From positions 124,001 through 188,000 of the forward strand of contig JAAXNY010000006.1 in assembly GCA_013420905.1 (NCBI GenBank): a stretch of 64,000 nt of DNA, given 5' to 3'. Below, piece by piece: positions 3,972 through 34,025 of this stretch. Position 1 is the first letter of the stretch. Each line of letters begins with the position of its first letter. The translations under genes were made by a program, and so were the position numbers. Source of the stretch: Collybia mongolica (Eukaryota > Basidiomycota > Agaricomycetes > Agaricales > Clitocybaceae). The notes under the pieces were generated by a model. The model was not told the origin of the DNA and did no database searches. It saw only the letters and a list, made by a program, of their open reading frames with translations.

Positions 3972-4231
3972 TGTTGGATTGACAAGGGTGCCGACGCCCG
4001 AACGCCAAGCCGCGCGCGAGGTCATACCATGCGCATGTCACCTTTTCTATTTCATATTTGTACTGTACAACCTTTACCCTCGTTCCGTATAGTCCCTGCT
4101 AGTCCCGTTATCTCCCTACAACCCCTATTCCTTTTCACAGAAATACCTGTTAGTTTTCATCCTCTCACCTCAGCTGTTGCCTTCGCTCTCGCGCGCACAT
4201 CTGAGACTTACTTTGTGTCTAGATCCTTACA
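3972..4231 (+). repeat. Copia LTR, 260 bp, inverted relative to its neighbour
   Basis: This is a complete LTR running TGTTGG to CCTTACA, the same 260-bp sequence as the LTR at 4232-4491 but in the opposite orientation. The two abut with no spacer, forming a palindrome of about 520 bp. The left host flank is the coding frame of the zinc-finger gene. Confidence 0.85.
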
Positions 4232-4491
4232 TTCTAGGATCTAGACACAAAGTAAGTCTCAGATGTGCGCGCGAGAGCGAAGGCAACAGCTGAGGTGAGA
4301 GGATGAAAACTAACAGGTATTTCTGTGAAAAGGAATAGGGGTTGTAGGGAGATAACGGGACTAGCAGGGACTATACGGAACGAGGGTAAAGGTTGTACAG
4401 TACAAATATGAAATAGAAAAGGTGACATGCGCATGGTATGACCTCGCGCGCGGCTTGGCGTTCGGGCGTCGGCACCCTTGTCAATCCAACA
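4232..4491 (-). repeat. 3' LTR of the copia element
   Basis: This 260-bp LTR ends in CCAACA at 4491. Read on the plus strand it starts TTCTAGGATC where the element's other LTR starts TGTAAGGATC, so the terminal dinucleotide and two further bases at the palindrome centre are changed. Read leftward it follows directly on the RNase H end of the copia pol. Confidence 0.85.
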
Positions 4492-9342: not shown

Positions 9343-9904
9343 TGTAAGGGCAACTCCGCTGGGTTACTGAGTTGTGCAGAGTCTGACGACGATTACCGAG
9401 TGACGGAGGTCGGGGTCGGGAATTCTAACTCGGAGCTGGTGGAGGGGATCCTAAGTTGATGTATTCACTTGTACGACATATGTACTACTCACCTGGTGGA
9501 GGGGATCCTAAGAGAATTCTCTAAGGGTCCTCCAGCCAGGTGTACAGGCTATATATGATGTTCCTACATTAACTACACGTTCCCGGGATGGTACGAGGGC
9601 ACGCGTTGTCGGTAAAGGATCATGTGGGCGCGCCGCAGTGATCCCGACAAGCCGCGCCCGCGTCCGCGTTTGGAAACGTCTAACGAGAGTCGGTAAAGGG
9701 AGCGGGGTGGTAACGAGTGTGGTGTGAGTGAGTGGGTGAGTCGGGTTTGACTCGGGTTGTTGTTGGTAACGACTTGTTGGTAAAGTAGTTGGTGACTACA
9801 GTCAGGAATGGGGATCGGGAATGGGGAGCATTCCCGAATGTTTGTATGGTCGGGAATGTTGTCGGAAAATGGAAAACGGAGTCGGTAAGGGTGTTCCCCT
9901 TACA
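9343..9904 (-). repeat. Chromovirus 3' LTR (562 bp)
   Basis: It is identical in length to the copy at 29182-29743 and differs from it at 17 sites, all CpG versus TpG or CpA. It contains the perfect 12-bp palindrome AGAGAATTCTCT at 9511-9522 and a TATATA motif on the minus strand near 9550. Confidence 0.95.
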
Positions 9905-9942: not shown

Positions 9943-10428
9943 TCAGAAAGGGATAGAATCGAATTGGGCACGCGGGAGTCGTCGGGGCGCTTGAGGATTT
10001 GCCCTGTGGAACTCGCTGACCAGTTCATCTGCATGAACATTCTTGGCGGGTTCCCAGGAGTTGTGTTTGTACCCGTACCCCTTCCAGGATACCAGGTAGT
10101 ACAACTTTCCTCTGCTAACCCGACTATCCCGTATATCTCCCACTTCGTATTCCTCCTCTCCGTCCACTAACACGGGCGGCGGAACGGTTGTCAGGCATCT
10201 TCCGGGAATTGGGTCAGCGGGCGCAGGAAGTAGTTTCACCACATGGAACACCAGGTGGATGCGCGACATGGACCTTGGAAGTTTCAGTCGGTACGCGTGT
10301 GTACCTATCCGCTCTGTGATCGGGTAAGGTCCTACATAGCGGTGGGCTAGTTTCCGCGTTGGCCGACTGATGGGAATGTCCGTTGAGTCTAGGTACATCA
10401 GATCACCGACCTGATATTTGGGCGTTGG
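9943..10428 (-). pseudogene. Chromovirus integrase tail and chromodomain
   Basis: It is in frame with the RT-integrase frame and separated from it only by TGA 10429-10431. It contains the GPY/F-like HRYVGPYPI block, SRIHLVFHVVKL, and a chromodomain (EYEVGDIRDSR, LYYLVSWKGYG, NSWEPAKNV). In chromoviruses this domain steers integration to modified chromatin. The upstream stop would remove it from the polyprotein. Confidence 0.85.
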
Positions 10429-12996
10429 TCAGTGTTGGCGATTGTAGTACCGCGTCATATCTTCCTTGGCCTTGGCTAGTGCTGATCGTGCCTCCTCTAG
10501 CGCGGATTCCATCCGTTGCATGAATTCCCCGACCGTCTCTAGTTGGGCGGGTTCCGTCTGAGGTTCAAATCCCATGCGCGGGTGTCTGCCAGTGTCTAGG
10601 AAGAAGGGCGTGTGCTGTGTGGAGGCGTGAACATGGTTGTTGTACTGGAATTCAGCGAGCGGTAGGAGTTTGTTCCAGTTGTTCTGCCTCTCGCTTACGA
10701 ACAGCCGCAGGTATTGCTCGAGTTCTTGGTTTACGCACTCAGTTTGCCCGTCCATTTGTGGGTGGTAGGTGGTGGACGACGTCAGTTTAATCCCAAGTAG
10801 TTGGTAAAGTTCTTGCATGAACTCCGCTACGAATTGTGGTCCTTGGTCGGATACCACCGCATTCGGTAGTCCATGGTGTTTCCAAACCTCCTTCAAGTAC
10901 AGGCAGGCGGCTCCCAGTGCGGTAATGGTGGTGTGGGTGGGTATGAAGTGAGACCGCTTCGCCACCGACTCGACTACTACCATGACCGCGTCAAATCCTT
11001 CCGATTCGGGGAGTGCGCCAATGAAGTCCACACTGATAGTCTCCCAGCGGGTGTTCGGGATTTCCAGCAGGTGTAACTCTCCGATCGGTAATTGACACTG
11101 TATCTTTGTGCGGAGACATAGGTCGCACGTCCGACAGTACTGACCAATATACTGCGACATCTGAGGCCACCAGTAGTTGCGGGACACCAATTCCAACATT
11201 TTCCATCTCCCCGCGTGTCCCGCCACTCGAGTGTTGTGGTGTTGTTCCACAATGCGTCGGCGGAGGTCTGCGAAGTTAGGAACGTAAATCCGACCACGGA
11301 AATACAGTACCTCTTGTTCCTCCCGCCACTCTGCGCTGTGGACCGACTTGTCTTTTCCCTGTCGGAGTTTCTTCGCCGCCTCTGCTACCAAGTCCTCCAA
11401 ATGTCCACCTCGATTTCCGCGCCGAATGTCCTTCATCACGTCCTTTTCCTCACCTTCCGCCCTGATTCCTTCGAGTGCACGTATTGTGAACAGCTTGGGT
11501 TTGAGGAGGACAATGTCCTTATTGTCTTCCGCTCCATCCGAATGGTCAGCGTGTCGCGAGAGAGCGTCGGGTTTACCCATACTCCTTCCGGGTTTGTGAT
11601 GTAAGGAGAAGTTGAAGCGGGAGAGGTACAGAGACCAGCGGGCTTGTCGGCGGTTGAGTTTCTGGGCTGACCGAAAGTATTCTAAATTCTTGTGGTCAGT
11701 CCATACCTCGAATGGGTGTCGGGCTCCTTCTAGGAAGTGTCTCCATTCCTCCAATGCCCGAATGATAGCCAACATCTCCTTGTCGTGGATCTCGTAGTTC
11801 CGCTCGACCGCATTGAGACTCTTGGACATGAAGGCCACCGGATGCCATTTCTCGTCTTCCCGACTGAGTTGGGACAATACCGCGCCAGTTGCGAAATCCG
11901 ACGAGTCGGCCTCGATGCGGTAAGGGCGGTCGTCGTCGGGGAACATCAATACTGGTCGGGATGCCACTCGTGCCTTCAACTCTTCAAACGCCGCTTGTTC
12001 TGCCTCGCCCCACTTCCACGCCGCGTCCTTCCGCATCAGGTCAAAGAGTGGTCGGGCGTGGTGGGAGAAACCCTCTATGAAGCGCTGGTAGAAGTTAGTA
12101 AATCCTAGGAACGATTGTACTTCCTTCTTGTTGGTTGGCGCTGGCCAGTCCACTATACCGCTGACCTTGACGGGGTCCATTTCTGTCTTTCCCGCTGAGA
12201 TGATAAGTCCCAGGTACTCGATCCGCTCTTGTTCAAACTCACATTTGTCAAGTTTGAGGAATAACTTGTGTTCCCGACAACGTTTGAGGACTTCCCGAGT
12301 GACCCGTTGATGTTCCGCTCGGGTTTTTGTGTAGATAAGGATATCGTCAATGTACACGCAGACTACACCGGCGGTGATGAGATCCTGAAAGATTTCGTTC
12401 ATCATCGTTTGGAACGTAGCAGGTGAGTTCGTGAGTCCAAAGAACATTACCAGGGGTTCAAACAGTCCTCGATTTGTTCGGAATGCCGCCTTCCACTCGT
12501 CTCCTTCCTTAATCCGCACATTGTTGTAACCCCAGCAGACGTCCAGCTTGGTAAAGTACTTGGCCCCACGCAGTTGGTTGATGAGCTTGGAAATCAGCAG
12601 AAGGGGGTATGCGTTCTTGATTGTCATTCCATTCAGTACTCGGTAATCTTGAACGGGTTGGAGGGAGCCATCCTTCTTCTTGATGAAGAAGAATGGTGTG
12701 GCCATTGGGGATTTCGAGGGGCGGATGCATCCCGACGACAGGTTCTCCTTGAGGAACTTGTCCAACTCTTCCTGTTCCGTGACCGACAAGGGGTAGACCT
12801 TGCACGATTGGGATTTGGCTTCGGGAATGAGTTCAATGGCGTGGTCCCAAGACCGCTTGTCGGGAAGTGTGTTGAAGGATGTTTTCGAGAACACGTCCTC
12901 GAATTCGTGTACGTAGGCGGGCGCTGTCTCGCGAAACGACTTGGCGGGTTGGGAGTTTCGATGGAAGACTTCCGCTAGCCTCTGGGATATGTTCGG
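10429..12996 (-). pseudogene. Chromovirus pol: RT, RNase H, integrase
   Basis: RT motifs are present in order: ELIPEAKSQSCKVYPLS, FFFIKKKDGSLQPVQDYR, TKLDVCWGYNN, and the catalytic VYIDDILIY. RNase H has RIEADSSDFATGAVL and EMLAIIRALEEWRHFLEG. Integrase has the HHCC finger (HNTRVAGHAG and CRTCDLCLRTK) and the D, D, E residues in ISVDFIGALP, VVSDQGPQFV and HPQMDGQTECVNQELEQYLR. The frame is open for over 850 codons. Its upstream end is cut at 12997 by the LTR of the second element; the missing piece lies at 25818-26238. It stops at TGA 10429. Confidence 0.9.
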
Positions 12997-14212
12997 TGAT
13001 AGGGCCCGAAATTGTTTGCACTTATAAAGTCGACAAGTAAGGCTATTAGTGTCATTTCTAATAACCAAGTAAGCGGTAATAAAGGATTAGAGTCGAGCTC
13101 CAAGACGGCTAATCAGAGTGAACTAGTCTAATGGATAATACACTATCAGTACAGAGGACTATGAGTACGGTCTATTATTAGTCCTATTCACCATGCCCGG
13201 TTACAACCTCGGTGTCTTAGTTCATAAGTAACCGTTGTAGTATGATATCATTAGTCCGGGGATCATCATTAATAGGAGAAGTAATTGTAAATTCGGGACT
13301 TGCACAACCCGATCCTAGTCAGGGGTACTTGGTGTTAACTACCGGAAGCGACGGGACACCGTGAATAACAACAGGGACAATCAGGGGGAGTAAACGACAG
13401 TGCCGCGCTGTTTTAAATAACAAAGCGCGCGGTCGGGACTTGATAAGAGTTTAGCCCGCTCTTTCAATATTTGATAAGTAACCAGTAAACGACATAATTG
13501 GCACGCGTGGCACGCGCGCCAAGCTGTAGTAGATGCGTCGGTATTGAATACAGATCCTTGGCGCGCGGGAGCGCGGTTCCGTGTAAAATTTACAATTCCG
13601 TATGATATTTAGTTTGTACATTATAAATAGACTGTAGATGAGTAGTGCTAAGGTAAGGAATCTTGCCCCCACTTCGCGCGACTATAGAGTATACAAATCA
13701 CATTTGTTAAAACACTATTGCGTGTCCGAACTAAGGATCAGATTGCTTCAACGTGTCTTGATTGGAATTGATTGGAGAACCACAGAATTAAAGAAGCTTA
13801 GTTCACTTGGAACTTAGTACCGTATTGTCCGTTGGAATTACTAGGCACTTGGCCTTAGTGCACTTGGCACTGTATTGTTTGATAAGTTGCTTGGACTTAT
13901 AGATCCGCTTGGGATCACTAATAATTGAACGTACACTTGGTACTCAGTCTATTGGATCGAGAGATATTATAAATATACCTAGCAGGTTTTTGAACCTGTG
14001 TTGAAGCTTTTGTCTAAATCGAACCCGTCGAGAGATCATTGGAAAGGGCTTTGGCTAGTACTATTCAAAGCTTAGTGCTTCTAAGCACTTGAACCCGAAC
14101 TCAAAACAGGCGATTCCTACTGTTCGTGTGTTGATTGTTAGGTTTGGTGTGTGTGTGAGAGAGATTACATTTCATAGCATCAGCGCACTTATAGCCCAGG
14201 AGCCCCCTTTCA
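12997..14212 (+). repeat. 5' LTR of the 12.8-kb element (1216 bp)
   Basis: It starts TGATAGGGCCCG and ends CCCCCTTTCA. A TATAAATAG motif at about 13622 is a plausible promoter TATA box. The five differences from the 3' LTR lie within about 13455-13540 and all can be read as CpG decay, with the solo LTR keeping CG at several of these sites. Confidence 0.95.
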
Positions 14213-14668
14213 TCTGGAGCCCACCGCGAGGGTTCAGAGTTTTTGAATAGTCTAAAGAGAGCATCTTTCTTTGAAAAATATTATACCAAGACGAGTAACA
14301 TCGTCTACAAATTGAAGTAGAGCGGAGAAAGTTTAGTCAATCTGTCTCAAGAGCCACGCCCACAAGCCAGCTCGTCAAACAGACTAACTAATCAGCCACT
14401 TGCAAGACAAGTAGCTACAAAAACGCGGCAGACTAAAAATTCGCAAAACGCTGGAGTAACAGAGTCGTTACCACCTCCTAGGCGAGCGCGCACACGAGGA
14501 TCTTCACAACCAGCCTTTGGATCTTCAGGACCAAGGCAAGTATTTAGAACTCCAGAGCCCTTAGGAAACATATCGACTACTAGTAAACCAGTAGTGCGCG
14601 GAAGATCGTCCGTAGTAAACCCAGTAGCAAACCCGAACTCGTTAGCTACTCAGAACCGTTCAGTAATC
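14213..14668 (+). promoter_or_regulatory. Primer-binding site and gag leader
   Basis: Directly after the LTR comes TC and then TGGAGCCCACCGCGAGGG, starting with TGG as expected for pairing with a tRNA CCA end (14215 onward). I do not name the tRNA. The rest is a leader of about 430 bases without a recognised domain. The gag frame is open from about 14594 on a GTG, but the first ATG is at 14669. Confidence 0.55.
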
Positions 14669-16180
14669 ATGACTGAACCCCCTCGTAAATATATGCCCCA
14701 ACCAGGCGTCCGTGATGCACCAGTATTCAAAGGAAAAGAGCCCACGGGTTTAATCCGGTTTCTGGAGCGAATGGAGGTCCTATGGAAGGAGTGTAACATT
14801 ACAAATGATGAAGAAAAGAAGTTAATGTTAGGAAAATACGCAGACCTACAATCAGAGAATGAGTGGAGGGCATTAGACCACTATAAGACAGGCACTTGGA
14901 CGGATTTCAAGACAGAGTTGATCTCTAGTTATCCGGAAGCACTCGATCAAGTAGAAGGATCAGTGGCCAAGTTAGAAGCAGTGTGTCGCGCCAACCCACG
15001 TATTGGAGTAACCGATGAGGCCGCGCTGAAAAAGCTGAAGCGTGAATTCAAAGCAGAATCTATTAAACTCTTGGGAGTTAGGCCACCTATTATCTCTAAC
15101 CGAGAATTAGTTACCAAGTTCTTGGGGTGTCTAGACGAAGTCTTCAGATCCCAAGTACAAGGAAGGCTAACCCTGCTAGGGAATAATCAGTCTAATGCTA
15201 CACAGGCAGGACAAGCCATTGCTACAAACAACCGAGCAGATCCTAATACTATTGCTGAAGCCGCCGCGCTCGCGCGACGAAAAGGGGATCAGTACGATCT
15301 GGAGGAAGTTATAGCAACTGCAATCAGCATTTCTGAAGGTGTAGCCAACATGAATATTCCAGACACAAATAGATCGTTTATAACGTCCGTAACAGCAACT
15401 GCAGCGCCCAAAATCAAAGTAGAGATGGATGAAATAAAACAACAAATAGTTAATTTGTTAGACCGTCTCCAAGTAAATGAGAAGAATACGAGGAGTGGAT
15501 TCGAGGATGTAATGAAAGCGCTTCAACAAGCAACTGTTCAGAACCATGCCACGAATAGCGCACCCCAGCAGCATCAGTATCAGAATCAGTACGGAAAGCC
15601 TAAAGAAGGACAACCGCAAAGACCAAATGCGTATAAATGTCACTACTGTTTTACACCCGGACACTTCATAATGGCCTGTCCCGAGAAACAGAAACATTTT
15701 GAGGAAGGGAAAATAAAAACCAACGCAAATGGAGGAGTATGCTTACCAGACGGATCATATATTCCAAGAGAACCAGAAACGGTATCATTGAAAGATAAAG
15801 TGGAACACTTCCATTCAAAGAAGGTAGCGGCCCTTTATTACGGAGATGTCACGGAAGGACCCGCTCCAGGAGTATTGTCCGTTATGCAGTCACATAATGC
15901 AGTAGACAATAGTAATGACATTGGAACCTTGAAAGCCATAATGGCACAAATGGCACAATTTCAAGCGCAACAAATGTTAGGACAACAGGGCGCGCAAACT
16001 GCGTTGCCAGTACCGCCTCAGATGCAGAAACAGGAATATATAAATAATAACTATAATCCTACGGCAAAGAGCGCGCCGAATCCTGACATAGTAGCCTTAC
16101 AAGCACAAATGAGTACTTTATTAGGGCAGGTAGCAGAACTCAATAACCAAAACAAGGTTAAAGAGTCGGGTTTCAATTAG
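14669..16180 (+). CDS. gag of the 12.8-kb element
   Basis: About 503 residues from ATG 14669 (MTEPPRKYMPQPG). The first 250 residues look like a retrotransposon capsid (FKGKEPTGLIRFLERMEVLW and further helices). A Gln-rich stretch precedes a CCHC knuckle CHYCFTPGHFIMAC (about 15635), which binds the genomic RNA. The frame is uninterrupted and ends at TAG 16180; the next frame opens six bases later in the -1 frame, as gag and pol often lie. It looks functional. Confidence 0.85.
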   Translation: MTEPPRKYMPQPGVRDAPVFKGKEPTGLIRFLERMEVLWKECNITNDEEKKLMLGKYADLQSENEWRALDHYKTGTWTDFKTELISSYPEALDQVEGSVAKLEAVCRANPRIGVTDEAALKKLKREFKAESIKLLGVRPPIISNRELVTKFLGCLDEVFRSQVQGRLTLLGNNQSNATQAGQAIATNNRADPNTIAEAAALARRKGDQYDLEEVIATAISISEGVANMNIPDTNRSFITSVTATAAPKIKVEMDEIKQQIVNLLDRLQVNEKNTRSGFEDVMKALQQATVQNHATNSAPQQHQYQNQYGKPKEGQPQRPNAYKCHYCFTPGHFIMACPEKQKHFEEGKIKTNANGGVCLPDGSYIPREPETVSLKDKVEHFHSKKVAALYYGDVTEGPAPGVLSVMQSHNAVDNSNDIGTLKAIMAQMAQFQAQQMLGQQGAQTALPVPPQMQKQEYINNNYNPTAKSAPNPDIVALQAQMSTLLGQVAELNNQNKVKESGFN

Positions 16181-16185
16181 GTCCA

Positions 16186-16620
16186 ATGAAGGAGGCTAAG
16201 GAACACGCTAGACCTACGACTAGGTTGCGTTCCAAGAGACAGCCAGAGGACCGAAATAAAAACAGAAATAGTCGTCAAGAAAGTAATGATTCGGAGAGTA
16301 GTCGGGATAGTAGCGAGGAGGAGTTGGTAGCGCCGTCTCCTAGGAAAAAGAAAGTAAAATTTGTTGAACCATCAGTAAAGTCTCCAGTACGAAAAGAATT
16401 ACCCTACATCGATGTGCCCGTGGTACCCTACATACCCCGGAGAACGGAACGCAACCCTGAACCAGTTGATCCGCTACCTAATTTTAACACTAAGCGTGGT
16501 CCGACTTATGAAACTAAGTCCCCGATAGAAGTAAAATTAAAAGGTGGCGATATAATTGCTAAAGTGTTAGACAACCCTATCACATTGACCACGGGAGAGT
16601 TAATGGGCTCGTCATCTTAA
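16186..16620 (+). CDS. pol N-terminal segment without protease motif
   Basis: 144 codons from [17 protein letters not shown]. It is basic and Ser/Glu-rich, with a KKKVKF cluster and then a conserved-looking block [19 protein letters not shown]. It ends in TTGELMG at a TAA, just where the RT frame (-1) takes over with LVILKPKEM. Related mushroom elements place a linker and an aspartic protease here. I see no D-S/T-G motif in any frame between 16186 and 16800, so the protease seems deleted, and the frame change may mark the deletion junction. Confidence 0.6.
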
Positions 16621-16631
16621 AACCTAAAGAG

Positions 16632-19600
16632 ATGGATATAATCCACGACTTTATGTGCAAACATAATGATGGTTTTGCCTGGAATGATAGTGAGCGCGGT
16701 AGCTTTAAGAAGGAATATTTTCCTCCCGTCGAGATACCAGTAGTCCCACATACGCCGTGGACAGAAAGGAACATTAGAATCCCACCAGGGATCTATGAAG
16801 ATGTTTGTAAAATCATCAAAACTAAAATTGATGCAGGAGTCTATGAGAGATCCAATTCATCATATAGGTCTAGATGGTTTACCGTATTAAAGAAAGGCCC
16901 AGGAAAGAAGCTTAGAATTGTACATAGTCTAGAACCGCTGAATGCAGTCACAATAGCGCACTCGGGCTTACCACCCGCTACCGAAGAACTAGCAGAACAC
17001 TTCGCAGGGCGCGCTTGTGGCGGAATGATGGATCTATATGTAGGATACGATGAGAGGCCTTTAGCAGAAACCTCGCGCGATCTAACCACGTTCCAAACAC
17101 CGTTTGGCGCGCTGAGACTAGTAACACTTCCTATGGGATGGACGAATTCAGTTCCAATATTTCATGATGATGTCACATACATCCTACAGGATGAGGTACC
17201 ACATGTCACAATACCCTACATTGATGATGTACCTGTGCGCGGTCCAGCAACGCGCTACGAACTGCCGGACGGAACAGAAGAAGAGCTACCTGGTGCTCCA
17301 GGTGTTAGGCGCTTCTTCTGGGAACATATGCAAAATGTAAATCGCGTCGTACAGAGAATGAAGTATTCTGGAGGAACGTTTTCAGGATATAAGTCTATGT
17401 TATGCGCAAGTGAAATTCTAGTGGTAGGACATAGATGTACCTATGAAGGACGAAAACCTACTACAGATAGAATCGGTGTAGTTGAAAGATGGGGACCATG
17501 CAAAGATGTCAGTGAAGTACGCGCTTACATGGGAACTATTGGTGTATGCAGGAATTTCATTAAAGACTTCGCCCGTATAGGCCAACCAATTCAAAAGTTA
17601 ACTAGAAGTAGTGAACCTTGGATATGGGGGCCTGAGCAAGAAGAAGCACAGCAGCTATTGTTAGACGCACTTAAAAATAGCCCTGCGCTCCGTCCAATTA
17701 ATTACACCTGGAATACGCCAGTGGTATTGTCAGTAGATATGTCATGGAAAGCCGTAGGCTACTATATCTATCAGGAAGACCCTGATATACCTGGAAGAAA
17801 GCACTATGCTAGATTTGACTCGATAACTCTGAATGAGCGCGAAGCGCGCTTCTCACAACCCAAACAAGAGCTATTCGGATTGATGAGAGTTCTAATGGCA
17901 TGTTATTATTGGTTTATTGGAGTACGAAATTTGGTAGTGGAAACGGATGCAAAGTACATTAAGGGGATGTTATCAAACCCAAGTCTAGGACCTAATGCAA
18001 CGGTAAATAGGTGGATTGATAGGATACTTATGTTCCACTTTACTCTGGTTCATAAAGCTGGTAAAGGCTTTGGCCCAGATGGTCTGTCAAGACGAGACGC
18101 GCGGCTAGGGGATCCTGTCTACCCGGACCCAGACGATGGTTACAACGAACCCTCAGGTCCTTTAAGGTTTATCAACCCAACGGAAGGATTGGATGACCCT
18201 TTGGAGCTGTCAGATTTTAAAGAGGAGATCGACACGCGCGGCGGATATTTATTCCAACTTGCGAAGGAAATCTCTGATTTTGAAGTTGAAGTAAACAATG
18301 CCTGGGCTGGTGAAGCAGCATTTATTGGAGAAGTAAAACAGCACTTAGGTTTAGGACGGTTCGGTATTCAAAGAGAAGCTTATCTAAAGCAACTTGTAAA
18401 TACTACTGTCATACCCGATGAAAAGTTTAAATATGACCCTAATGTAAGGGAAGTATATGACGAGTCTAAACAAACACCTACGGCGCAGGAACAGGATAAA
18501 AACCTACCTTTAATAAAAGAATGGTTAAAAAGACCACAAAAGAGACCAAAAGGAATGACGGATCGCGCCTACCTAAAGTTTGCAAGGCAGGCGTCTAATT
18601 TCTTTTTGGATCCAGAAGGCAGGATGTATAGGAAAAATATCGATAGCGCGCACCAGCTTGTTGTTGATAAAAATCACCGGACATATATGATGAAGGCATC
18701 TCACGATTCTGTTGGACATAGGGGTTTCTATGCAACAAAATCCTTAATAGATAAAAGATTTTGGTGGCCAGAAATGGAACGCGATGTATCATGGTATGTG
18801 AAGTCATGTCACATCTGTCAGACAAGGCTCTTAACTTTGTTGAGAATCCCTCCTGTCATAACCCACACGCCGTCTATATTCCAAGTATTGCATGCGGACA
18901 CCATGTATATGAGCCCATCGTCTAACGGTTATAAATACATTGTCCAAGGAAGATGTGCGCTGTCTTCGTGGATGGAAGGCGCGCCCCTCAAATCTGAGGA
19001 TGGCAAGACCTTGGGAAGGTGGCTGTTTGAAGAAGTAATTTGTAGATGGGGTTCCCTAATGGAAATTGTAATGGATAATGGTCCTGCCTTTGTTGCAGCC
19101 AAAGCGTGGCTGGAATCCAAGTATGGTATTACAGGAATAAGTATATCACCATACAATTCCAAAGGAAATGGGATCGCCGAGCGCGCACATTGGGATGTGC
19201 GTCAAGCTGTCTTCAAAGCTACAGGTGGTGATGTAAAGAAGTGGTACTACTTCTTCCACCATGTAATGTGGGCTGACAGAATTACTATACGGAAAGGGAC
19301 GGGTTGCTCCCCCTATTTTATGATTACGGGCGCGCACCCAACCTTACCGTTAGATATTATCGAAGCCACTTGGTTAGTAAAGTTACCAGGAAAAATATTG
19401 ACTACAGAGGAACTCATTGGATTTAGAGCGCAGGCTCTAGCTAAGCACGTCCAGCATGTGGCCGATATGAGGAAACGTATCAATATAGAAAAACGAAGGA
19501 GACTATTACAGTATGAGAAGGATCACAGCGCGACCATCAGAGACTATGATTTCAAACCAGGAAGTTTAGTACTAGTTAGAAATACCGAGGTCGAAAGTTC

Positions 19601-19991
19601 GCTCGATAAAAAGCTGAAGCCACGGTACCTGGGACCAATGATAGTCCTTAGACGAAACCGCGGGGGAGCCTATATTGTTTGCGAAATGGATGGATCGGTG
19701 TGGCAACATAAAGTGGGGGCGTTTAGGGTTATTCCCTATTTTGCTAGGAGTACAATTGAACTGCCGGATAATCTGCAAGATCTAATAGACATCTCTAGCG
19801 AAACACTAAATGCTTTAGTGGAATCGAAAGATCCCGCTAATAGGCAAGTTTACAAGGAGCGTGACTATACGTTTGACAGAGTCCAATTGGATCAGTCCGA
19901 TTCAGAGTCAAGCTCTAGTGAGAACACTGAGGAGGGGATAGCGCCGGCGCTACCACAAACTACTATGTCACACCGGAAGTTGCATAGGTGA
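16632..19991 (+). CDS. pol: RT, RNase H and integrase of the 12.8-kb element
   Basis: 1119 residues, uninterrupted. RT has [20 protein letters not shown], the first-Asp region [28 protein letters not shown] and the catalytic YIDDVPVRG. RNase H begins near [18 protein letters not shown]. Integrase has the HHCC finger (HDSVGHRGF through CHICQTRL) and the triad in [19 protein letters not shown] and [21 protein letters not shown]-like block ([16 protein letters not shown]) follows; there is no chromodomain. The N-terminus may be read from upstream by a -1 shift near 16605, so the ATG at 16632 is only the first Met. The product should be catalytically competent. Confidence 0.85.
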
Positions 19992-20137
19992 TAAATCAGT
20001 ATGGAAACAGAAGCAGTAAAGACAGTATAAGCAACTAAGCGAAGTAGTAAGGACAGTGTTAAGCCGAGTAAAGACAGTAATACAAAGGAGCATGGGGAGG
20101 GACACCATAACTCAGGAGGAAGTTAATTGGACTGTCC

Positions 20138-21511
20138 TCAAGCAGATATGAAGTCGTCTTCAACCTCGGGCAAGGGCAAGTCAGCCGGAGCTACCTCCTC
20201 CTTATCATTGTCATCCTGGTCATGGACTTCCGTAGCGCTCGCAGTGGCAGCCTCGTCAGAGCCTCCCTCCAGAGCGGCCTCGTTCATTAGACCATTGAGG
20301 CGAGTAACCTCGTCCATAGTGGCATCACGACGCTTCAATAAGAAGGACACTGTATGACTGATCTCCTCCAACTCAGCGCGGTAGTTTAAAAGCATCCTAC
20401 CGAGGGCTTGCGACATGGGATCGCCCGCGTCTGCAATCAAGCGCGCCCGCGCTAAGACTACATTGTGCTCCTTGGAGGGACGGAAGTCAATAAAGACACG
20501 AGTATCTGATGCACAGTCGGTATAAATTTAGGACCATCTATTATTAGAAAACGTACCCTCAGCAGATACCTTTGGATCTTCATCCGGGGTGTCTTGCCTC
20601 GTACGCTTTTTGGGACGAAGAGTGCTGCCGCGATTGAGCTCGGAACGCTTGCCGTCCTGTAGGAATAAGAAACAAAGTAATAGACAGAGCAAAAACAAGA
20701 ATGGGTACCTTGATGGCAGCCTTTTCAGCCTTAGTCCTTTTGACACGGGGAACCTTAATGTTCTCCGTCTCCTTGCGGCTACGGGTGATTGGTCCTTCAC
20801 TAAGGAGACGACTAGTCACTGATCCAGAGACAGCAGCACTAGCCGTAGCGCCGGAATCAATGACCATATTCTTGAGTAAAGAAGAGACGCCATTGAGTAT
20901 GTCGCGCACTGACAGCGCGGTAGCTAAAAAGAAACATACCGAGTCAGTACCAGACATTTCAATGTCACCATCATATTCACCGCCAGCAATGACCTCGCCT
21001 GGAATAGTGGTACCATCCGCTTCACCACCAGTAGCAGGGACCTAGTACCAGAAAACCATGGTTTAAAGAGCAGTACAGTACGAGATGAGGTAAAAAGCAC
21101 GCACCGCGGTTTGAGACAGGTGCTCAGTGCAGACCTTTTCACGGTGACGGTGAATAGCGGCAGTCAGAGTCACAATATTACGGTAAACAGGCTCTTGAAG
21201 TAACTCGGGGTATACATGTTGTAGTCCCTGGAATGCCTTACGGACGCCAAAAATAACATTCTGCCAGGACCGCTCCGTCAAAACCAATTTGGACTCAGTC
21301 AGGAGTAGCTGTAAATTGTAAAACCTGGTTACAAAAACGGCGTTTTAAAAAGTGTAATTGGTAAAAAGTGTACCGCGGTTTCGCCTAACTTCCGGACGCT
21401 GACCCTTTGTTCAACAAGGGTGTCCATCGATAAACGAGCTTGAAAGGTGTGCCACTGAGCTTGGACCATCTTGAAGTTCTCGATGTCTTGATAGTTAGGG
21501 GGGCTAGTCAT
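20138..21511 (-). CDS. Antisense cargo gene B, 5 exons, 380 aa, unknown function
   Basis: Exons 21374-21511, 21105-21308, 20709-21041, 20557-20656 and 20138-20505 join to 1143 bases (381 codons with stop), all with GT-AG introns of 51-67 bp and matching phases. The protein starts MTSPPNYQDIENFKMVQAQW. It has basic clusters (KVPRVKRTKAEKAAIK, LRPKKRTRQ) that could be nuclear signals, and a strongly acidic C-terminus (about 60 residues, rich in Asp, Glu and Ala). I recognise no domain. It ends 146 bp from, and convergent with, the end of pol. A TATAAAAAG motif lies on the minus strand about 100 bp upstream of the ATG. It lies wholly inside the LTRs. Confidence 0.75.
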
Positions 21512-22203
21512 AATAATGCAGAGGAAATTGATTCTTTGAACCAGAACGTTGTAAAGAGAGTATAATAGAGTCAGGCGATGTCTTGGGACAAAAAGCACAG
21601 CCAGTGCCCTTTTTATACCTCTACGACTAGAGAAGCGCTACCCAGTCTCTCATTCGTTGCGCGCGTTCTATCCCCAGAAAAATCTATACATTTCAACTGA
21701 ACAGGTCCGAGACGCGTGCCTAATTGAAATGCTGGGCCCAATTGAAAAAGGAGCTCCGTAAAAATTCATGTGGAGCGCGGCAGTGTCCGCATGACAACTG
21801 GGACAGTTGTTGTCAGTGTTGAGGGGGAGATGGGTATAAGCAAAATCGATTTGGAAAAACCTACCAAGGTTACAAGGATTGAAATAGATTGTCTATAAAA
21901 AGTCAGTGATCGCACCACGGTCTTAATGATCGAGAGAATTGCACCAGAATTAAACGGTACTATTTATAACTTAAGTAGCCGGTGCAAGGGCGGAAGCTTT
22001 CTTATGAAGACAATAGAACAACGGGTAAACCAATTGTATTGTTTATAGTCCAGGGGACTGTATGTAGAAACATGTGTTGGACTTCAATTAATAAAATTGA
22101 AGCCCAACGAAAGGCGGGGGAATAAGTAATATGTAAGGGCACAGGGGCCCGGGAAAACACAAGTAGATAAAAAAAAAAATATAGGGGGGGGGGCGCGGCG
22201 CGG
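21512..22203 (-). promoter_or_regulatory. Intergenic region between the two cargo genes
   Basis: It holds the presumed promoter of gene B: on the minus strand TATAAAAAG near 21618, about 100 bases before the ATG. Close to the gene A stop it has A and G homopolymer runs (about 22169-22193). No other gene is visible. Confidence 0.4.
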
Positions 22204-24149
22204 CTACTCCTCCTTGCTGTCAGGCACGGACGAAGAGGAACTTGACGACGAAGAACCGTCATCAACCTCTGCTTCTTCCTCCAAGGGCAGCCAAGGGAGG
22301 TTCTGGAAATCCGCGTAGAAGAGGAGAGCGCTCTCCGTGGCTGGCGTAGTCAGCAAGAGGTTTTGAAGGCCCTCCAGGCCTTCCTCCTCGTACAACTTAC
22401 CGATGGTGCCAACTATGCGCGCCAACAAGGAGTTGCGCATTTCAAGCGCGCGGTTAGCGGCCTGAATGACCTCCACGGCAAGAGAGTCCGCGTCGCCTAG
22501 CTGAGCATAGGCTTCAGCAACCGCTAGTAGAATAAGTAAAATCATTAGTAAACAAAAAGACAGAAAGAAAATGGCTTACTAGAAATGCCCGCACCAAGCA
22601 TCGGCCCCAGATCCTCATGAAGCCTAGCGCGCTTCTGGGGAGTGAGGCTGAAGCTGCACTTCCCCTTCTTGGCGGTGGCGCATTCAACGCACGGTTTACC
22701 CCAACCGTTGAAGGTGCACTCAATGTCGCCGCGGGTGGCGCACATCGTGCAAGGATAGCCCACCTAGTAAAAAAATGATCAGTAACAAGAAATAAAGTAG
22801 TAATAAACATACGGAAGAGCGCCGCAGCACAAGGTCAGCCAGCAGGGAGGTAATAGGGGACTGTAGCGGCGTCAGCTCCCGGTTGGGAACCAGCGCATGC
22901 TTGCGGCGTGTCGCCTGAGCCCTATCCCTAGAACGGGTGGTCTTACGCGACCGACGAGGAGAAGGGGCCGCGGGAGGCAACAACTCCGCGAACCCCTCTT
23001 GAGCCAACTGGCGTGCGATCTCATCATCGAAGAGCCGAAGCTCAGGGACTTCAACCTTCACCGGCGGCTGCCCAGAGGACTAAGGAGATAAAGATGAGTA
23101 AACGTAAATGACTTCAGAAAGAGACATACCGGGCCTGCTTCCGAGGGACGCAGCGCGGAAGCACTGCCAGTCCCCTGGGCGCGCGACATGTCGGACTAGA
23201 ATTTTGAAATCAAGTCAGCAATAATGTGAAACTCGTAAAGTAAAGGATATACCTGGGGAACCGCACGGCCTTTTCCCTTGGACCCAGCATTACGCTTCCG
23301 CTTGAGGGGCTATTAAAATAAGTCAACCACTGAAGGAAAGTAATAAAAAGCAGTGATAAACGAACCGCAGGTACCAAGACCGGGGAGCGCGCCGGCAAGG
23401 GCGCGGCGGACCAATTGTCCCGGTACTGATGGTAACGGCGCGGTGCGCCCACCATGCGAGGAGGGACGAGGAAAGTATCCTGAAAGATACTTTCACCGTT
23501 GTCGCGCTCGAAGCGCGACCCCACCTGGTCCAGGACTTGCTCCACAGTGGGAGCCTGGCCCTAAAGTAAAAGGTAGTCAGCTTGACAAGGGCAGGCAGAG
23601 TAAAGAAGTAAACAAGTCACTTACCAGAAGAATGGAATTGTGGCCCAGGTCAGTCGATATGACCATGCGCCAGGAAGACCACGAAGCCTCGCGCGCGTCG
23701 ACAGGGATGCGCATCACTTGAAGGTGAAGCGCGCACAGGAGGAGGATAGCCGGATATGGCAGCGAGAAACGCGCGCCACGGACCACGCCAGTGATGGCAT
23801 CCTGAGACCAGTAAATAAGTAAAAGGAGTTAACAAGTAAAAGATGGGCGTACGATGAGCATGGAGCAGTGATTGACAAAGTCGATCAAGTCATCAAGGTC
23901 AAGGGGACCTTGGTGGTCCATACGGGGCGCGAGCTCCTCGGCCATGATAATCCACCCTTGCTCCATAGCGACGAAGACGTCGCCCTCGGCATCTTCGAGG
24001 AGGTCCGAGAAGGAAGGGATCGGCTGGTCCACATAGACCATGGTGGGGGAACGGCCCTCAGTCGGCAGAATCGCGGCAGAAAGCGAGAGGGACAGCGCGG
24101 AAGGCGAGCGCAGAGCACAAGCCATGGCGGAAGTGGAAGTGGAAGACAT
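22204..24149 (-). CDS. Antisense cargo gene A, 8 exons, 520 aa, Zn2Cys6-like cysteine cluster
   Basis: Exons 23853-24149, 23625-23801, 23366-23560, 23253-23309, 23130-23195, 22813-23079, 22580-22763 and 22204-22523 sum to 1563 bases, exactly 521 codons with the stop, all with GT-AG introns of about 47-64 bp. The start is MSSTSTSAMACALRS; an in-frame Met 15 codons upstream (24194) is possible. Residues 290-350 are basic (SPRRSRKTTRSRD), and residues 358-389 form C-x2-C-x7-C-x8-C-x2-C-x7-C, close to the fungal Zn2Cys6 pattern but one residue longer in the first loop. The tail is acidic with nine Ser. A DNA-binding role is inferred from the cluster only. Possible TATA-like motifs lie upstream on the minus strand (near 24215 and 24412). 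Confidence 0.8.
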
Positions 24150-24601
24150 TTCTGTTTGAAAAGAGTTGGAGCGTTTGAGCAATGCAGATAGCAAAGAGAT
24201 TTAGAAATGGGCTATAAAGTCCAAATTGTCTAAAACTTAGCAAGGACGCGAGCTTTTTAAAACGCACAACCCTGCATTGCGAAGCTCTGAAAGACAAACA
24301 GGAGTACCGATCTCTTGCTGAAGTGTCAGAAACATAACGAGAAAAATGTCCAGATGACTGAAATATCTGTAAAGCGATGTCCGAATGTCAAGTACTCTCT
24401 CAGGAGACGTATATAGCTGTCACAATCCTGATGGGAAGTAAAACCTCTGGGCTCGATCCCAACATCGCGCGCCTACCTGTCTAAAAGCGGAACCGTTGTA
24501 ACATTGTACTGAAAGATTAGACGCGTGCAGACCCGAAGTATTGGACCAACATGCCGGCAAAGAGAGACTGAGGACAGTCTACATTTGTGGTATGGGGGAG
24601 A
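24150..24601. promoter_or_regulatory. Gene A upstream region and polypurine tract
   Basis: This lies between the cargo gene A start and the 3' LTR. Read leftward it should be the gene A promoter (TTTATAG near 24215, TATATA near 24412). Its right end, TATGGGGGAGA next to the LTR at 24602, fits the polypurine tract that primes plus-strand synthesis of the retroelement. Confidence 0.5.
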
Positions 24602-25817
24602 TGATAGGGCCCGAAATTGTTTGCACTTATAAAGTCGACAAGTAAGGCTATTAGTGTCATTTCTAATAACCAAGTAAGCGGTAATAAAGGATTAGAGTCG
24701 AGCTCCAAGACGGCTAATCAGAGTGAACTAGTCTAATGGATAATACACTATCAGTACAGAGGACTATGAGTACGGTCTATTATTAGTCCTATTCACCATG
24801 CCCGGTTACAACCTCGGTGTCTTAGTTCATAAGTAACCGTTGTAGTATGATATCATTAGTCCGGGGATCATCATTAATAGGAGAAGTAATTGTAAATTCG
24901 GGACTTGCACAACCCGATCCTAGTCAGGGGTACTTGGTGTTAACTACCGGAAGCGACGGGACACCGTGAATAACAACAGGGACAATCAGGGGGAGTAAAC
25001 GACAGTGCCGCGCTGTTTTAAATAACAAAGCGCGCGGTCGGGACTTGATAAGAGTTTAGCCCACTCTTTCAATATTTGATAAGTAACCAGTAAACGACAT
25101 AATTGGCACGCGTGGCGTGCGCGCCAAGCTGTAGTAGACACGTCGGTATTGAATACAGATCCTTGGCGCGCGGGAGCGCGGTTCCGTGTAAAATTTACAA
25201 TTCCGTATGATATTTAGTTTGTACATTATAAATAGACTGTAGATGAGTAGTGCTAAGGTAAGGAATCTTGCCCCCACTTCGCGCGACTATAGAGTATACA
25301 AATCACATTTGTTAAAACACTATTGCGTGTCCGAACTAAGGATCAGATTGCTTCAACGTGTCTTGATTGGAATTGATTGGAGAACCACAGAATTAAAGAA
25401 GCTTAGTTCACTTGGAACTTAGTACCGTATTGTCCGTTGGAATTACTAGGCACTTGGCCTTAGTGCACTTGGCACTGTATTGTTTGATAAGTTGCTTGGA
25501 CTTATAGATCCGCTTGGGATCACTAATAATTGAACGTACACTTGGTACTCAGTCTATTGGATCGAGAGATATTATAAATATACCTAGCAGGTTTTTGAAC
25601 CTGTGTTGAAGCTTTTGTCTAAATCGAACCCGTCGAGAGATCATTGGAAAGGGCTTTGGCTAGTACTATTCAAAGCTTAGTGCTTCTAAGCACTTGAACC
25701 CGAACTCAAAACAGGCGATTCCTACTGTTCGTGTGTTGATTGTTAGGTTTGGTGTGTGTGTGAGAGAGATTACATTTCATAGCATCAGCGCACTTATAGC
25801 CCAGGAGCCCCCTTTCA
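24602..25817 (+). repeat. 3' LTR of the 12.8-kb element (1216 bp)
   Basis: Same length and termini as 12997-14212, about 99.6% identical by eye. It is followed by TCGG, the second copy of the target duplication, and then the chromovirus pol frame resumes. Confidence 0.95.
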
Positions 25818-26238
25818 TCGGGATTGCTCGACACATCTCTTCCGGTCCCTTTGTCTGCTTTTCCGCGTGGTTTGGGTCCCGTAGACTCACTGCAAAGATG
25901 CGGTCACCCTCTTCTAGGAGTTCGGAAAGCGGGTTTGGGTTTTCCGAGTCAGTATCTTCCTCTTCGTCGGTACCCACGTTCGGGAAGAGTCCCGCTTGGC
26001 ATGAATTGATTTGCGCTTCCATTTTCCGCTTCTCCCTAGTTTCCGCCTTGACTTCCTCAGTGCATACCCGACACTTGGCTGGACACCGACTGAGTTTCAC
26101 CTCATTCGTTGTCCAGTCTATCTCCGGGTTATGCTCCTTGAGCCAGGTGTAACCTAGGATGAGGTTGTGTGTCCCGAGGTGTGTGACCGCGAAGGTGGTT
26201 CGTTCCGAATGACCTTTGTAGCGTAGAACCAGTTCCGC
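25818..26238 (-). pseudogene. Chromovirus pol fragment between protease and RT
   Basis: The minus-strand frame reads ELVLRYKGHSERTTFAV, LGYTWLKEHNPEIDW and KCRVC, then an acidic linker ending MCRAIP. It is the C-terminal part of the aspartic protease and the linker to RT. It joins in frame with the protease across the solo LTR (26239-27454) and with NISQRLAEVF of the RT frame across the 12.8-kb element. It is stranded only by these two insertions. Confidence 0.85.
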
Positions 26239-27454
26239 TGATAGGGCCCGAAATTGTTTGCACTTATAAAGTCAACAAGTAAGGCTATTAGTGTCATTTC
26301 TAATAACCAAGTAAGCAGTAATAAAGGATTAGAGTCGAGCTCCGAGACGGCTAATCAGAGTGAACTAGTCTAATGGATAATACACTATCAGTACAGAGGA
26401 CTATGAGTACGGTCTATTATTAGTCCTATTCACCATGCCCGGTTACAACCTCGGTGTCTTAGTTCATAAGTAACCGTTGTAGTATGATATCATTAGTCCG
26501 GGGATCATCATTAATAGGAGAAGTAATTGTAAATTCGGGACTTGCACAACCCAATCCTAGTCAGGGGTACTTGGTGTTAACTACCGGAAGTGACGGGACA
26601 CCGTGAATAGCAACCAGGACAATCAGGAGGAGTAAACGACAGTGCCGCGCTGTTTTAAATAACAGAGCGCGCGGTCGGGACTTGATAAGAGTTTAGCCAG
26701 CTCTTTCAATATTTGATAAGTAACCAGTAAACGACATAATTGGCACGCATGGCGCGCGCGCCAAGTTGTAGTAGACGCGTCAGGATTGAATACAGATTCT
26801 TGGCGCGCGGGAGCGCGGTTCCGTGTAAAATTTACAATTCCATATGATATTTAGTTTGTACATTATAAATAGACTGTAGATGAGTAGCGCTAAGGCAAGG
26901 AATCTTGCCCCCACTTCGCGCGACTATAGAGTATACAAATCACATTTGTTAAAACACTATTGCGTGCCCGAATTAAGGATCAGATTGCTTCAACGTGTCT
27001 TGATTGGAATTGATTGGAGAACCACAGAATTAAAGAAACTTAGTTCACTTGGAACTTAGTACCGTATTGTCCGTTGGAATTACTAGGCACTTGGCCTTAG
27101 TGCACTTGGCACTGTATTGTTTGATAAGTTGCTTGGACTTATAGATCCGCTTGGGATCACTAATAATTGAACGTACACTTGGTACTCAGTCTATTGGATC
27201 GAGAGATATTATAAATATACCTAGCAGGTTTTTGAACCTGTGTTGAAGCTTTTGTCTAAATCGAACCCGTCGAGAGATCATTGGAAAGGGCTTTGGCTAG
27301 TACTATTCAAAGCTTAGTGCTTCTAAGCACTTGAACCCGAACTCAAAACAGGCGATTCCTACTGTTCGTGTGTTGATTGTTAGGTTTGGTGTGTGTGTGA
27401 GAGAGATTACATTTCATAGCATCAGCGCACTTATAGCCCAGGAGCCCCCTTTCA
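26239..27454 (+). repeat. Solo LTR of the 12.8-kb element family
   Basis: Exactly 1216 bp, with the same termini as the other two copies, flanked by the 4-bp duplication CCGC (26235-26238 and 27455-27458). It has clearly more differences from the other two (about 20 by eye) than they have from each other, so it is older. A solo LTR arises by recombination between the two LTRs of a full element. Confidence 0.95.
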
Positions 27455-27863
27455 CCGCTATTTCACTGATAGAGCCCGCTTCGTTCGGAGTCCCATCAAC
27501 ATTGTATACCGCGACTGGCCACTGTAATTTCCGAGTTGCAATCCGGTGTTTCTCAATGTAATCCTTGTGGATGAACATCCCCATTGCGCCCGAGTCCACT
27601 AATCCTGTCACTCCGAATGTTTCTCCCGTGTCTGTAGTTTGGAGCTCTACCTTTAAGTCTAGTGATCTGGTCCCTGGGATCGCTGCGACTGTGTATTCCT
27701 TCGGAAGCCTGCGCTCCCAACGCGGAATCTGCGTTTTCCGACTTGTCGGGTTTGAGGGTACGACTTCGGTAGTAGGTTCAGACGGCGGGGGGCAATCGTG
27801 TATTTCCTCCACCTCTAAACAATGGTATCTACTACCGCTCGTCAGCGGGGGCATACTGTTCAC
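27455..27863 (-). pseudogene. Chromovirus aspartic protease (N-terminal part)
   Basis: The frame MNSMPPLTSGSRYHCLEVEE leads to LDLKVELQTTDTGETFGVTG and the active site LVDSGAMGMFIHKDYI, then LQWPVAVYNVDGTPNEAG and SEIA, where the solo LTR cuts it. It overlaps the gag stop by a few bases and is in another frame, so gag-pol expression needs a frame change. Confidence 0.85.
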
Positions 27864-29181: not shown

Positions 29182-29743
29182 TGTAAGGGCAACTCCGCCG
29201 GGTTACTGAGTTGCGCAGAGTCTGACGACGATTACCGAGTGACGGAGGTTGGGGTCGGGAATTCTAACTCGGAGCTGGTGGAGGGGATCCTAAGTTGATG
29301 TATTCACTTGTACGACATATGTACTACTCACCTGGTGGAGGGGATCCTAAGAGAATTCTCTAAGGGTCCTCCAGCCAGGTGTACAGGCTATATATGATGT
29401 TCCTACATTAACTACACGTTCCCGGGATGGTACAAGGGCACGCATTGTCAGTAAAGGATCACGTGGGCGCGCCGCAGTGATCCCAACAAGCCGCGCCCGC
29501 GTCCGCATTTGGAAACGTCTAACAAGAGTCGGTAAAGGGAGCGGGGTGGTAATGAGTGTGGTGTGAGTGAGTGGGTGAGTCGGGTTTGACTCGGGTTGTT
29601 GTCGGTAACGACTTGTTGGTAAAGTAGTCGGTGACTACAGTCGGGAATGGGGATTGGGAATGGGGAGCATTCCCGAATGTTCGTATGGTCGGGAATGTTG
29701 TCGGAAAATGGAAAACAGAGTCGGTAAGGGTGTTCCCCTTACA
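29182..29743 (-). repeat. Chromovirus 5' LTR (562 bp)
   Basis: TGTAAGGG to CCCTTACA. It keeps CG at several sites where the 3' LTR has TG or CA, and the reverse. Promoter elements on the minus strand are TATATA near 29395 and the palindrome AGAGAATTCTCT at 29350-29361. Confidence 0.95.
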
Positions 29744-32746: not shown

Positions 32747-34025
32747 CTCAGTAAAAAGACTAGTCAGTGTTAGGTAGTGCACAGGTCTGACCCTGGTCTG
32801 GATGTCGTCCTGTGGTCAGGCAGTAGTCCAACTTATGTTCCTACCAAGCCAAAATAAATTGCCAAGAGATATGAGAAATCTTTTTTTTGTTTTCGGTTCT
32901 CGGCTTGCTTGAATGGGTGTTCTTGGTAACTCTCAGTAAAAAGCAGAAGTCGATCTGTGGTCAGTGAATGGTAGGCTTTTAGTCAGATTGGACCTGAGAC
33001 TGACTAATATGCGTTTTTGAGACATTTGACCAACTAGCTTTAGTTGATTGATTGACATACTTTGTCAAGCCCTAGTCAATTGACATTCAATAGTCAGTTA
33101 CAGGTCAGTCAATATGCATTGATTATTGAACGTGGTTCAATTCTCAGTCATCCACCAGTCAGTCCTGAGTCAGTGTTCCGTCAATTAATGCTGGCCAGCA
33201 GTTTTTATATTATATTATTTCTAGTACATGGAGTTGGTCTAGCTATACCATAGCAAAGCCTCAAAATCATTTCTCTCTATCATTTCCCCTGTGTCTTGAA
33301 TGGCATGGTTGATTTTATGGATGGAATGATGGAGTGCCCACCATGCTGTGTGGTGCAGGGCACACAACAATACTGCCTAGAAGGTAGCAATGTCATCATC
33401 AAATCATAATATATATAATGAAATTGGAAGCTTACAATTTTCGCCACACCTCGTACCATCCTACCAGGCCTTGGAGATAGCCATTCAAGAGGAATGTGGT
33501 GTTGTCAATGTTGATGGCAAAGTGAACTTGAGTGGTACAGTGTTTTTTTGCAGTTGTGGGAAAGGATTAATGGAGCTGTTGCAACGAAAGCTTTAGTGCC
33601 TGACCAATAAAAATGATCAGTCTAGAGACTCACAATATACAAAAACCATTGAAGGCCTGAACCTAAAGTGTTATTATCTCAATTAGTAGTGTGATTCGAG
33701 TATGGCTGCGCAATGGAGAGGAACAAGGTGAGTAGCACAGCTTGGTGTAGTGACACAGTGAAGGAAGCCACGACACAGCAGCCGGAGTTCTTCAGGGCAG
33801 GTCTTACAAACTCCAAAGAAATAACCTATTTTCATAAGCCAGTTACCAAGAACACCCATTCAAGCAAGCCGGGAACCGAAAACAAAAAAAAGATTTCTCA
33901 AATATCTTGGCAATTTATTTTGGCTTGGTAGGAACATAAGTTGGACTACTGCCTGACCACAGGACGACATCCAGACCAGGGTCAGACCTGTGCACTACCT
34001 AACACTGACTAGTCTTTTTACTGAG
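32747..34025. mobile_element. TIR element with arms of about 185 bp
   Basis: The arms 32747-32931 and 33841-34025 are inverted repeats, almost identical by eye over about 185 bases and starting CTCAGTAAAAAGACTAG. The interior (about 0.9 kb) encodes nothing recognisable and is rich in AGTCA/TGACT motifs. I see no clear target duplication. A second CTCAGTAAAAAG start lies right after the left arm (32932), which suggests a related element inside. It is probably a non-autonomous DNA transposon, inserted at the 3' end of the zinc-finger gene. Confidence 0.7.

Follow-up and report, generated by a model that had tools for sequence, protein, structure and literature searches.

The window analysed here, 64,000 nucleotides (nt) of the genome of the mushroom Collybia mongolica (assembly of 45.97 Mb in 26 contigs), contains at positions 12997-25817 a 12.8-kb Ty3/gypsy-type long terminal repeat (LTR) retrotransposon in which two predicted genes, here called A and B, lie between pol and the 3' LTR, antisense to gag-pol. 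We consider it probable that this element represents a multicopy family whose usual structure includes the two accessory genes, which retain their introns from copy to copy, are under purifying selection and may serve to regulate the element. Genes that have passed through RNA are classically recognised by the loss of their introns. In this family, intron-bearing genes are found inside a retrotransposon at 62 listed places, where their backward orientation appears to be what preserves the introns; intron-bearing cargo does not exclude retrotransposition.

As an earlier note on this DNA had described, the interval between pol and the 3' LTR accommodates two leftward genes, with open frames of 380 (gene A) and 520 (gene B) codons plus a stop codon. 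All 11 introns of the window copy, four in gene A and seven in gene B, are 49-65 nt long and have the GT-AG ends that the note had reported. Each gene is preceded by a TATA-like box that may act as its promoter. The features of the two genes are as follows.

20138-21511, minus strand: gene A, 5 exons, 1143 nt, 380 amino acids

21511-21374, 21308-21105, 21041-20709, 20656-20557 and 20505-20138, minus strand: exons of gene A

21610-21617, minus strand: TATA-like box TATAAAAA of gene A, about 100 nt upstream of the ATG, unchanged in all 12 aligned copies

22204-24149, minus strand: gene B, 8 exons, 1563 nt, 520 amino acids

24149-23853, 23801-23625, 23560-23366, 23309-23253, 23195-23130, 23079-22813, 22763-22580 and 22523-22204, minus strand: exons of gene B

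22580-22763, minus strand: exon 7 of gene B, with the cysteine motif CX2CX7CX8CX2CX7C

24210-24218, minus strand: TATA-like box TTTATAGCC of gene B, about 60 nt upstream of the ATG, likewise unchanged in all 12

Comparison of the copies indicates that genes A and B belong to the element family and not to a single copy. With the interval from the end of pol to the 3' LTR (19992-24601, hereafter the module) as query and the best 33 of 164 candidates scored, the module was recovered at 32 or more further places in the genome with 95-99% identity, 30 of which are near-complete (4.1 kb or longer). One copy (L033) has about 1 kb of additional sequence inside the module. A search with the stretch between genes A and B found at least 40 places, at 94-100% identity, and added nothing new. 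Seen from pol, for which the best 40 of 156 candidates were scored (the window and 39 others), the picture is the same. For the earlier note, absence of the module from all other full-length copies would have refuted its reading, but each of the 39 further pol matches listed is followed by module sequence. In 12 of them, a listed module directly adjoins pol; 18 are followed by a match to gene B exon 1 on the opposite strand, 1.2-5.5 kb downstream; one (C18) lies at a contig end, with gene A exons following; and the eight that were fetched all start with module sequence right after pol. Among these eight, L049, L050, L051 and the copy cut by a contig end (L048) are uninterrupted, and L044, L045, L046 and L047 are rearranged. 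By a stricter criterion, requiring exact motifs, the B cysteine motif was found on the opposite strand, 5.5-7.2 kb downstream, at 49 of 80 places with an exact reverse transcriptase (RT) motif.

These results bear directly on the idea that the window copy alone acquired A and B from the host, whether by capture or by insertion. Intron-bearing genes do resemble host genes, and protein databases offer little kinship for B: the full-length protein has no relative at E <= 0.01 among 7998 scored candidates, and a profile of its exon 1 has one among 47 candidates, with 97% identity, although this scarcity is a weak negative because intron-bearing genes are poorly called in such databases. Yet dozens of dispersed copies have the module in the same position after pol, which refutes a one-copy event, and it is carried by older copies too (86% identity in L063, 89% in L066), so that we regard this explanation as extremely improbable. 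A unique host ortholog, which the earlier note had raised as the alternative, did not emerge either, as no diverged host ortholog was seen among the best candidates, which were the ones scored, and the matches listed. An ancient capture of both genes at the base of the family is possible. Among other older copies, gene A is broken in L062 and L065, and L064 is unreadable in frame.

The module also appears to have travelled with the element. The boundaries of the window copy bear out what the earlier note had listed, namely near-identical LTRs (5 mismatches over 1216 positions), a 4-bp target duplication TCGG on both sides (12993-12996 and 25818-25821) and a polypurine tract:

12997-14212, plus strand: 5' LTR, 1216 bp, with TG...CA ends and a TCGG flank

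24594-24601, plus strand: polypurine tract GGGGGAGA, ending directly before the 3' LTR

24602-25817, plus strand: 3' LTR, 1216 bp, with TG...CA ends, followed by TCGG

A second full copy (C2, L031) lies within a duplication of its own, CCGT. To judge from these separate duplications, the note's proposal that the whole unit moved as one is shown to hold for both full copies.

The introns have stayed in place in the copies compared. Among the matches listed, 62 places span exon 1 into exon 2 of gene B, and in each of them the genomic stretch exceeds the coding length, by exactly 51 nt, the length of the intron, in 61 cases and by 27 nt in one; every one of these places has a single TAA inside. 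In the 12 aligned copies, each of the 11 introns is present, with GT-AG ends in 129 of 132 cases. Intron lengths vary between these copies (for example, 60-66, 50-56 and 47-51 nt), the exon sums differ by 9 nt in gene A and in gene B by the frameshift of L034 only, and the reading frame is open in 12 of 12 copies for gene A and 11 of 12, all but L034, for gene B. Such retention is what antisense placement would be expected to bring about. The genomic RNA made from the 5' LTR would carry the introns of A and B as reverse complements, and because these have CT...AC ends, they would, by established knowledge, not be removed; the spliceosome would leave them in place, and reverse transcription would restore them in each new copy. 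Transcription of the opposite strand would supply the mRNAs of A and B, from which the host would splice out the introns.

As a side observation, three copies (L032, L038 and L039) are mosaics, near the window over gene A and distant from it over most of gene B, and four others (L040-L043) are distant from the window over much of the module. Template switching would produce recombination between copies, and the mosaics suggest recombination between element RNAs. In addition, other members of the family often interrupt a copy or are rearranged with it (L003, L045, L047, L071 and L073).

Both genes are under purifying selection across the copies. Counted by codon position in the 12 aligned copies, the variable sites number 26, 14 and 43 in gene A and 40, 45 and 117 in gene B. 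The ratio of nonsynonymous to synonymous divergence (dN/dS), which the earlier note had recommended calculating, is 0.237 for gene A and 0.197 for gene B when pooled over all pairs of the 12 copies, L034 included (Nei-Gojobori), and when the window is compared with L040-L043, the most diverged four, the values are 0.15-0.21. Because the older copies look CpG-decayed in our reading, we used CpG-matched simulations, 2000 in number, in which each change stays on the same base and in its CpG or non-CpG context; they treat sites as independent changes and ignore shared descent and recurrent change. In gene A (12 copies), 41 of 83 changes alter the amino acid, compared with 55.4 +/- 4.1 in the simulations, none of which was as low (minimum 42). 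In gene B (11 copies, without L034), the observed number is 88 of 206, compared with 137.4 +/- 6.6, and again 0 of 2000 simulations were as low (minimum 117). The possibility that A and B are chance open frames was ruled out by the dN/dS values and these simulations.

The same data speak to the proposal that antisense RNA, and not protein, is the functional product, for instance by controlling the element through double-stranded RNA. Antisense RNAs regulate yeast Ty1 (PMC12786077), and the conserved TATA-like boxes would suit such a role as well; however, the constraint falls on the amino-acid sequence, and exon lengths hold the frame while intron lengths vary. An RNA product in place of the proteins is for these reasons quite unlikely, although RNA and protein roles are compatible and can coexist.

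The accessory-gene reading further proposes that A and B might act as a regulatory pair. In both proteins, some stretches are strongly basic and others strongly acidic, and acidic residues lie close to the C-terminus; because of the basic stretches and the acidic stretches near the ends, we infer that they are nuclear proteins. All 12 aligned copies have the six-cysteine motif of gene B, as do two older copies. A genome search returned 15 distinct variants of it, a count that is not an independent test of conservation because the search requires the cysteines, and a search at the DNA level with a pattern covering part of it gave 89 places, all of them close to the family's own sequence over the 27 matched bases. 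The fungal Zn2Cys6 pattern is CX2CX6CX5-12CX2CX6-8C; the spacing in B is one residue off this pattern and thus lies outside Zn2Cys6 proper, but because of the Zn2Cys6-like arrangement B may bind DNA. Pfam returned no family above its cut-off for either protein, protein A having a sub-threshold match to Rrn6_HB (E 0.044, 14.4 versus 26.4 bits). The pair could regulate the element at the level of LTR transcription, silencing or target choice, by analogy much like HBZ in human T-cell leukaemia virus type 1 (HTLV-1) or as proposed for the antisense open reading frames (ORFs) of plant elements. A bolder version, which we put forward tentatively and regard as possible but doubtful, is that the retrotransposon encodes its own spliced DNA-binding regulator together with a partner protein in antisense, making use of the host spliceosome without intron loss, and that antisense placement is a general route by which retroelements could carry multi-intron genes. 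In any case, the role of antisense accessory genes becomes testable in a fungus, and gene annotation may count antisense element genes as host genes.

Alternatively, the module might once have been a mobile element or gene pair in its own right that entered an ancestor in antisense orientation and now travels as a passenger, selection favouring the host or the module itself but not the retrotransposon. Its compactness and its own TATA-like boxes would fit this origin, and so would the uneven distribution of relatives: pol has 1341 protein relatives at E <= 1e-5 among 7995 scored candidates (the 120 listed share 56-79% identity, with one of 99%), whereas B has almost none. Moreover, a gene B copy of 80% identity (L067), which is one of the two B-motif places whose motif is most diverged, lies beside the start of an LTR only, with pol absent within the 3.5 kb fetched. 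On the other hand, proteins A and B lack not only a Pfam family above cut-off but also any match to a transposase in Pfam, and no module was recognised away from the element, yet 40 of the 89 B-motif places, which were partly examined, have no matched exact RT motif. We therefore judge an independent origin of this kind unlikely. Searches further afield, in viral contigs with the window pol or an alignment of 18 of the pol proteins, found no relatives, nor did a scan of prokaryote genome contigs.

Several observations weigh against a selected, two-gene family structure and its regulatory role. The exon-intron models were predicted from genomic DNA alone. At 31 of the 80 exact RT-motif places, no exact B motif lies nearby; in ten of these, 751 bases past pol were inspected, revealing the module in one (L069, outside the exact-motif pattern), only its first bases (to 20026) in another (L077), a module deleted from 20050 into the LTR, with part of the LTR gone too, in L071, LTR sequence after pol in three (L072, L073 and L074) and no element sequence after pol in four (L068, L070, L075 and L076). 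For some of the rest, other matches show the module to be there. The older full-module copies L063 and L066 have an open gene A but a broken gene B, and three gene B introns, two in L038 and one in L032, have AT-AG ends. The flanks of a third pair of full-length LTRs (L020/L023), ACGA and GCGC, do not match each other. Between the window and its three nearest copies (L034-L036), dN/dS amounts to 0.5-1.9, as expected when few changes have followed a recent insertion, although these values in themselves lend selection no support, and the introns of gene B are less diverged than its synonymous sites, which may be due to CpG-rich exons. As for the putative zinc cluster of gene B, it has no Pfam match even at E 10, a sequence search of the PDB returned no relative for A, B or exon 7, and the AlphaFold model of exon 7 is unusable (predicted local distance difference test score, pLDDT, 46).

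The remainder of the element has the following features.

14215-14232, plus strand: primer-binding site, starting 2 nt past the 5' LTR, TGG plus the complement of a tRNA 3' end

14594-16180, plus strand: gag ORF, 528 amino acids, with a CCHC zinc knuckle just under the Pfam cut-off (26.2 versus 27 bits)

16615-16635, plus strand: junction in the gag-pol interval, where about 1.4 kb of the C2 copy is missing from the window copy

16632-19991, plus strand: remaining pol ORF, with RT, RNase H and integrase

The order RT - RNase H - integrase is that of Ty3/gypsy elements. Pfam places RT at residues 126-268 of pol (below cut-off, E 0.0077), RNase H at 332-465 and the integrase zinc domain at 678-732, with no chromodomain, the hallmark of chromoviruses, after the integrase at E <= 1, and in the PDB the best sequence match is Ty3 Gag-Pol (7q5b) over residues 57-487, with prototype foamy virus (PFV) integrase over 656-903. 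Relative to C2, the window copy has lost about 1.4 kb from the gag-pol interval and is by this comparison not intact as a retrotransposon. The missing segment comprises the 1378 bp that separate the two matches and, in addition, a single copy of a 21-base repeat found at both of its edges; in C2 it includes a DGGS stretch, which we read as protease-like. The primer-binding site matches tRNA-Lys in our reading. Its 15-mer occurs 96 times in the genome, at least once within a tRNA gene recognised by ARAGORN; the program calls one matching gene (L058) Leu and leaves another (L059) unrecognised, and we read the two as intron-bearing tRNA-Lys genes (CTT and TTT).

A third LTR at 26239-27454, with 24 mismatches and CCGC on both sides (26235-26238 and 27455-27458), is, to judge by this duplication of its own, a separate solo LTR. 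Target duplications could be matched in 11 cases, and every one has the form NCGN, with a central CG, which is a strong target preference. They comprise eight solo LTRs, the third LTR of the window and the two full copies (loci: the window, L003, L004/L009, L008, L010, L011, L012, L014, L018 and L021); the others among the 30 LTRs have one outer flank in view or unmatched flanks (L020/L023, L025 and L027). The element appears to be set among older ones. Gypsy-pol-like ORFs lie beside it on the opposite strand at 9943-12996, and the repeats at 9343-9642 and 29182-29481 are, in our reading, probably the LTRs of that gypsy-like element. Elsewhere in the window, a perfect inverted repeat of 256 nt with an 8-nt gap (3972-4491), at the end of a copia-like element, could be a hairpin, a duplication or an assembly effect, and a second inverted repeat at 32747-34025, of 185 nt and 98% identity with 909 nt between its arms, possibly marks the ends of a DNA transposon.

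The earlier note had known of no described fungal element with this design. As far as multi-intron antisense genes are concerned, this stands, since no element carrying them was found described in the open-licence literature, a search that left subscription papers mostly outside; an added antisense gene as such is, however, already known from a fungus. The closest counterparts are plant Ty3/gypsy elements of the Retand lineage and others (Grande gene23, RIRE2, Retand and PvRetro13), which contain antisense ORFs (PMC7264820, PMC11963269). In these elements, as in the window element, pol is followed by a conserved coding region in antisense, which fills the space up to the 3' LTR. It spans 2.9-6.6 kb in Retand and 4.6 kb in the window element, in whose family it is present in most copies (39 of 39 other listed pol matches and 49 of 80 exact-motif places), and for Grande gene23 a promoter of its own and a nuclear location have been reported (PMC7264820, PMC11963269). 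The plant regions are described as ORFs, often with TRP28, and the word "intron" is absent from the main texts of these two papers, whereas the window element has genes with 4 and 7 introns and, with no TRP28 match of A or B in Pfam, falls outside the Retand lineage in this respect. In Botrytis cinerea, Boty / BcGypsy1 is likewise a gypsy element of a fungus and has gained an antisense gene, brtn (PMC7264820, PMC8365987), but it has one such gene and an ascomycete host, and the window element has two. The HBZ gene of HTLV-1 is antisense, yields a spliced transcript and encodes a nuclear protein that regulates the virus (PMC10186651); it is expressed from the 3' LTR, whereas the window genes each have an internal TATA-like box and together 11 introns, and any regulatory role of theirs is putative. 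Working introns are also known from the plant LTR elements Ogre and EVADE (PMC12786077), where they are spliced from the elements' own transcripts, in contrast to the window introns, which are antisense to gag-pol. Within the reach of these sources, antisense accessory genes are thus already known from plant elements, Botrytis and retroviruses, and the multi-intron antisense genes of the Collybia element appear to be a new variation on them.

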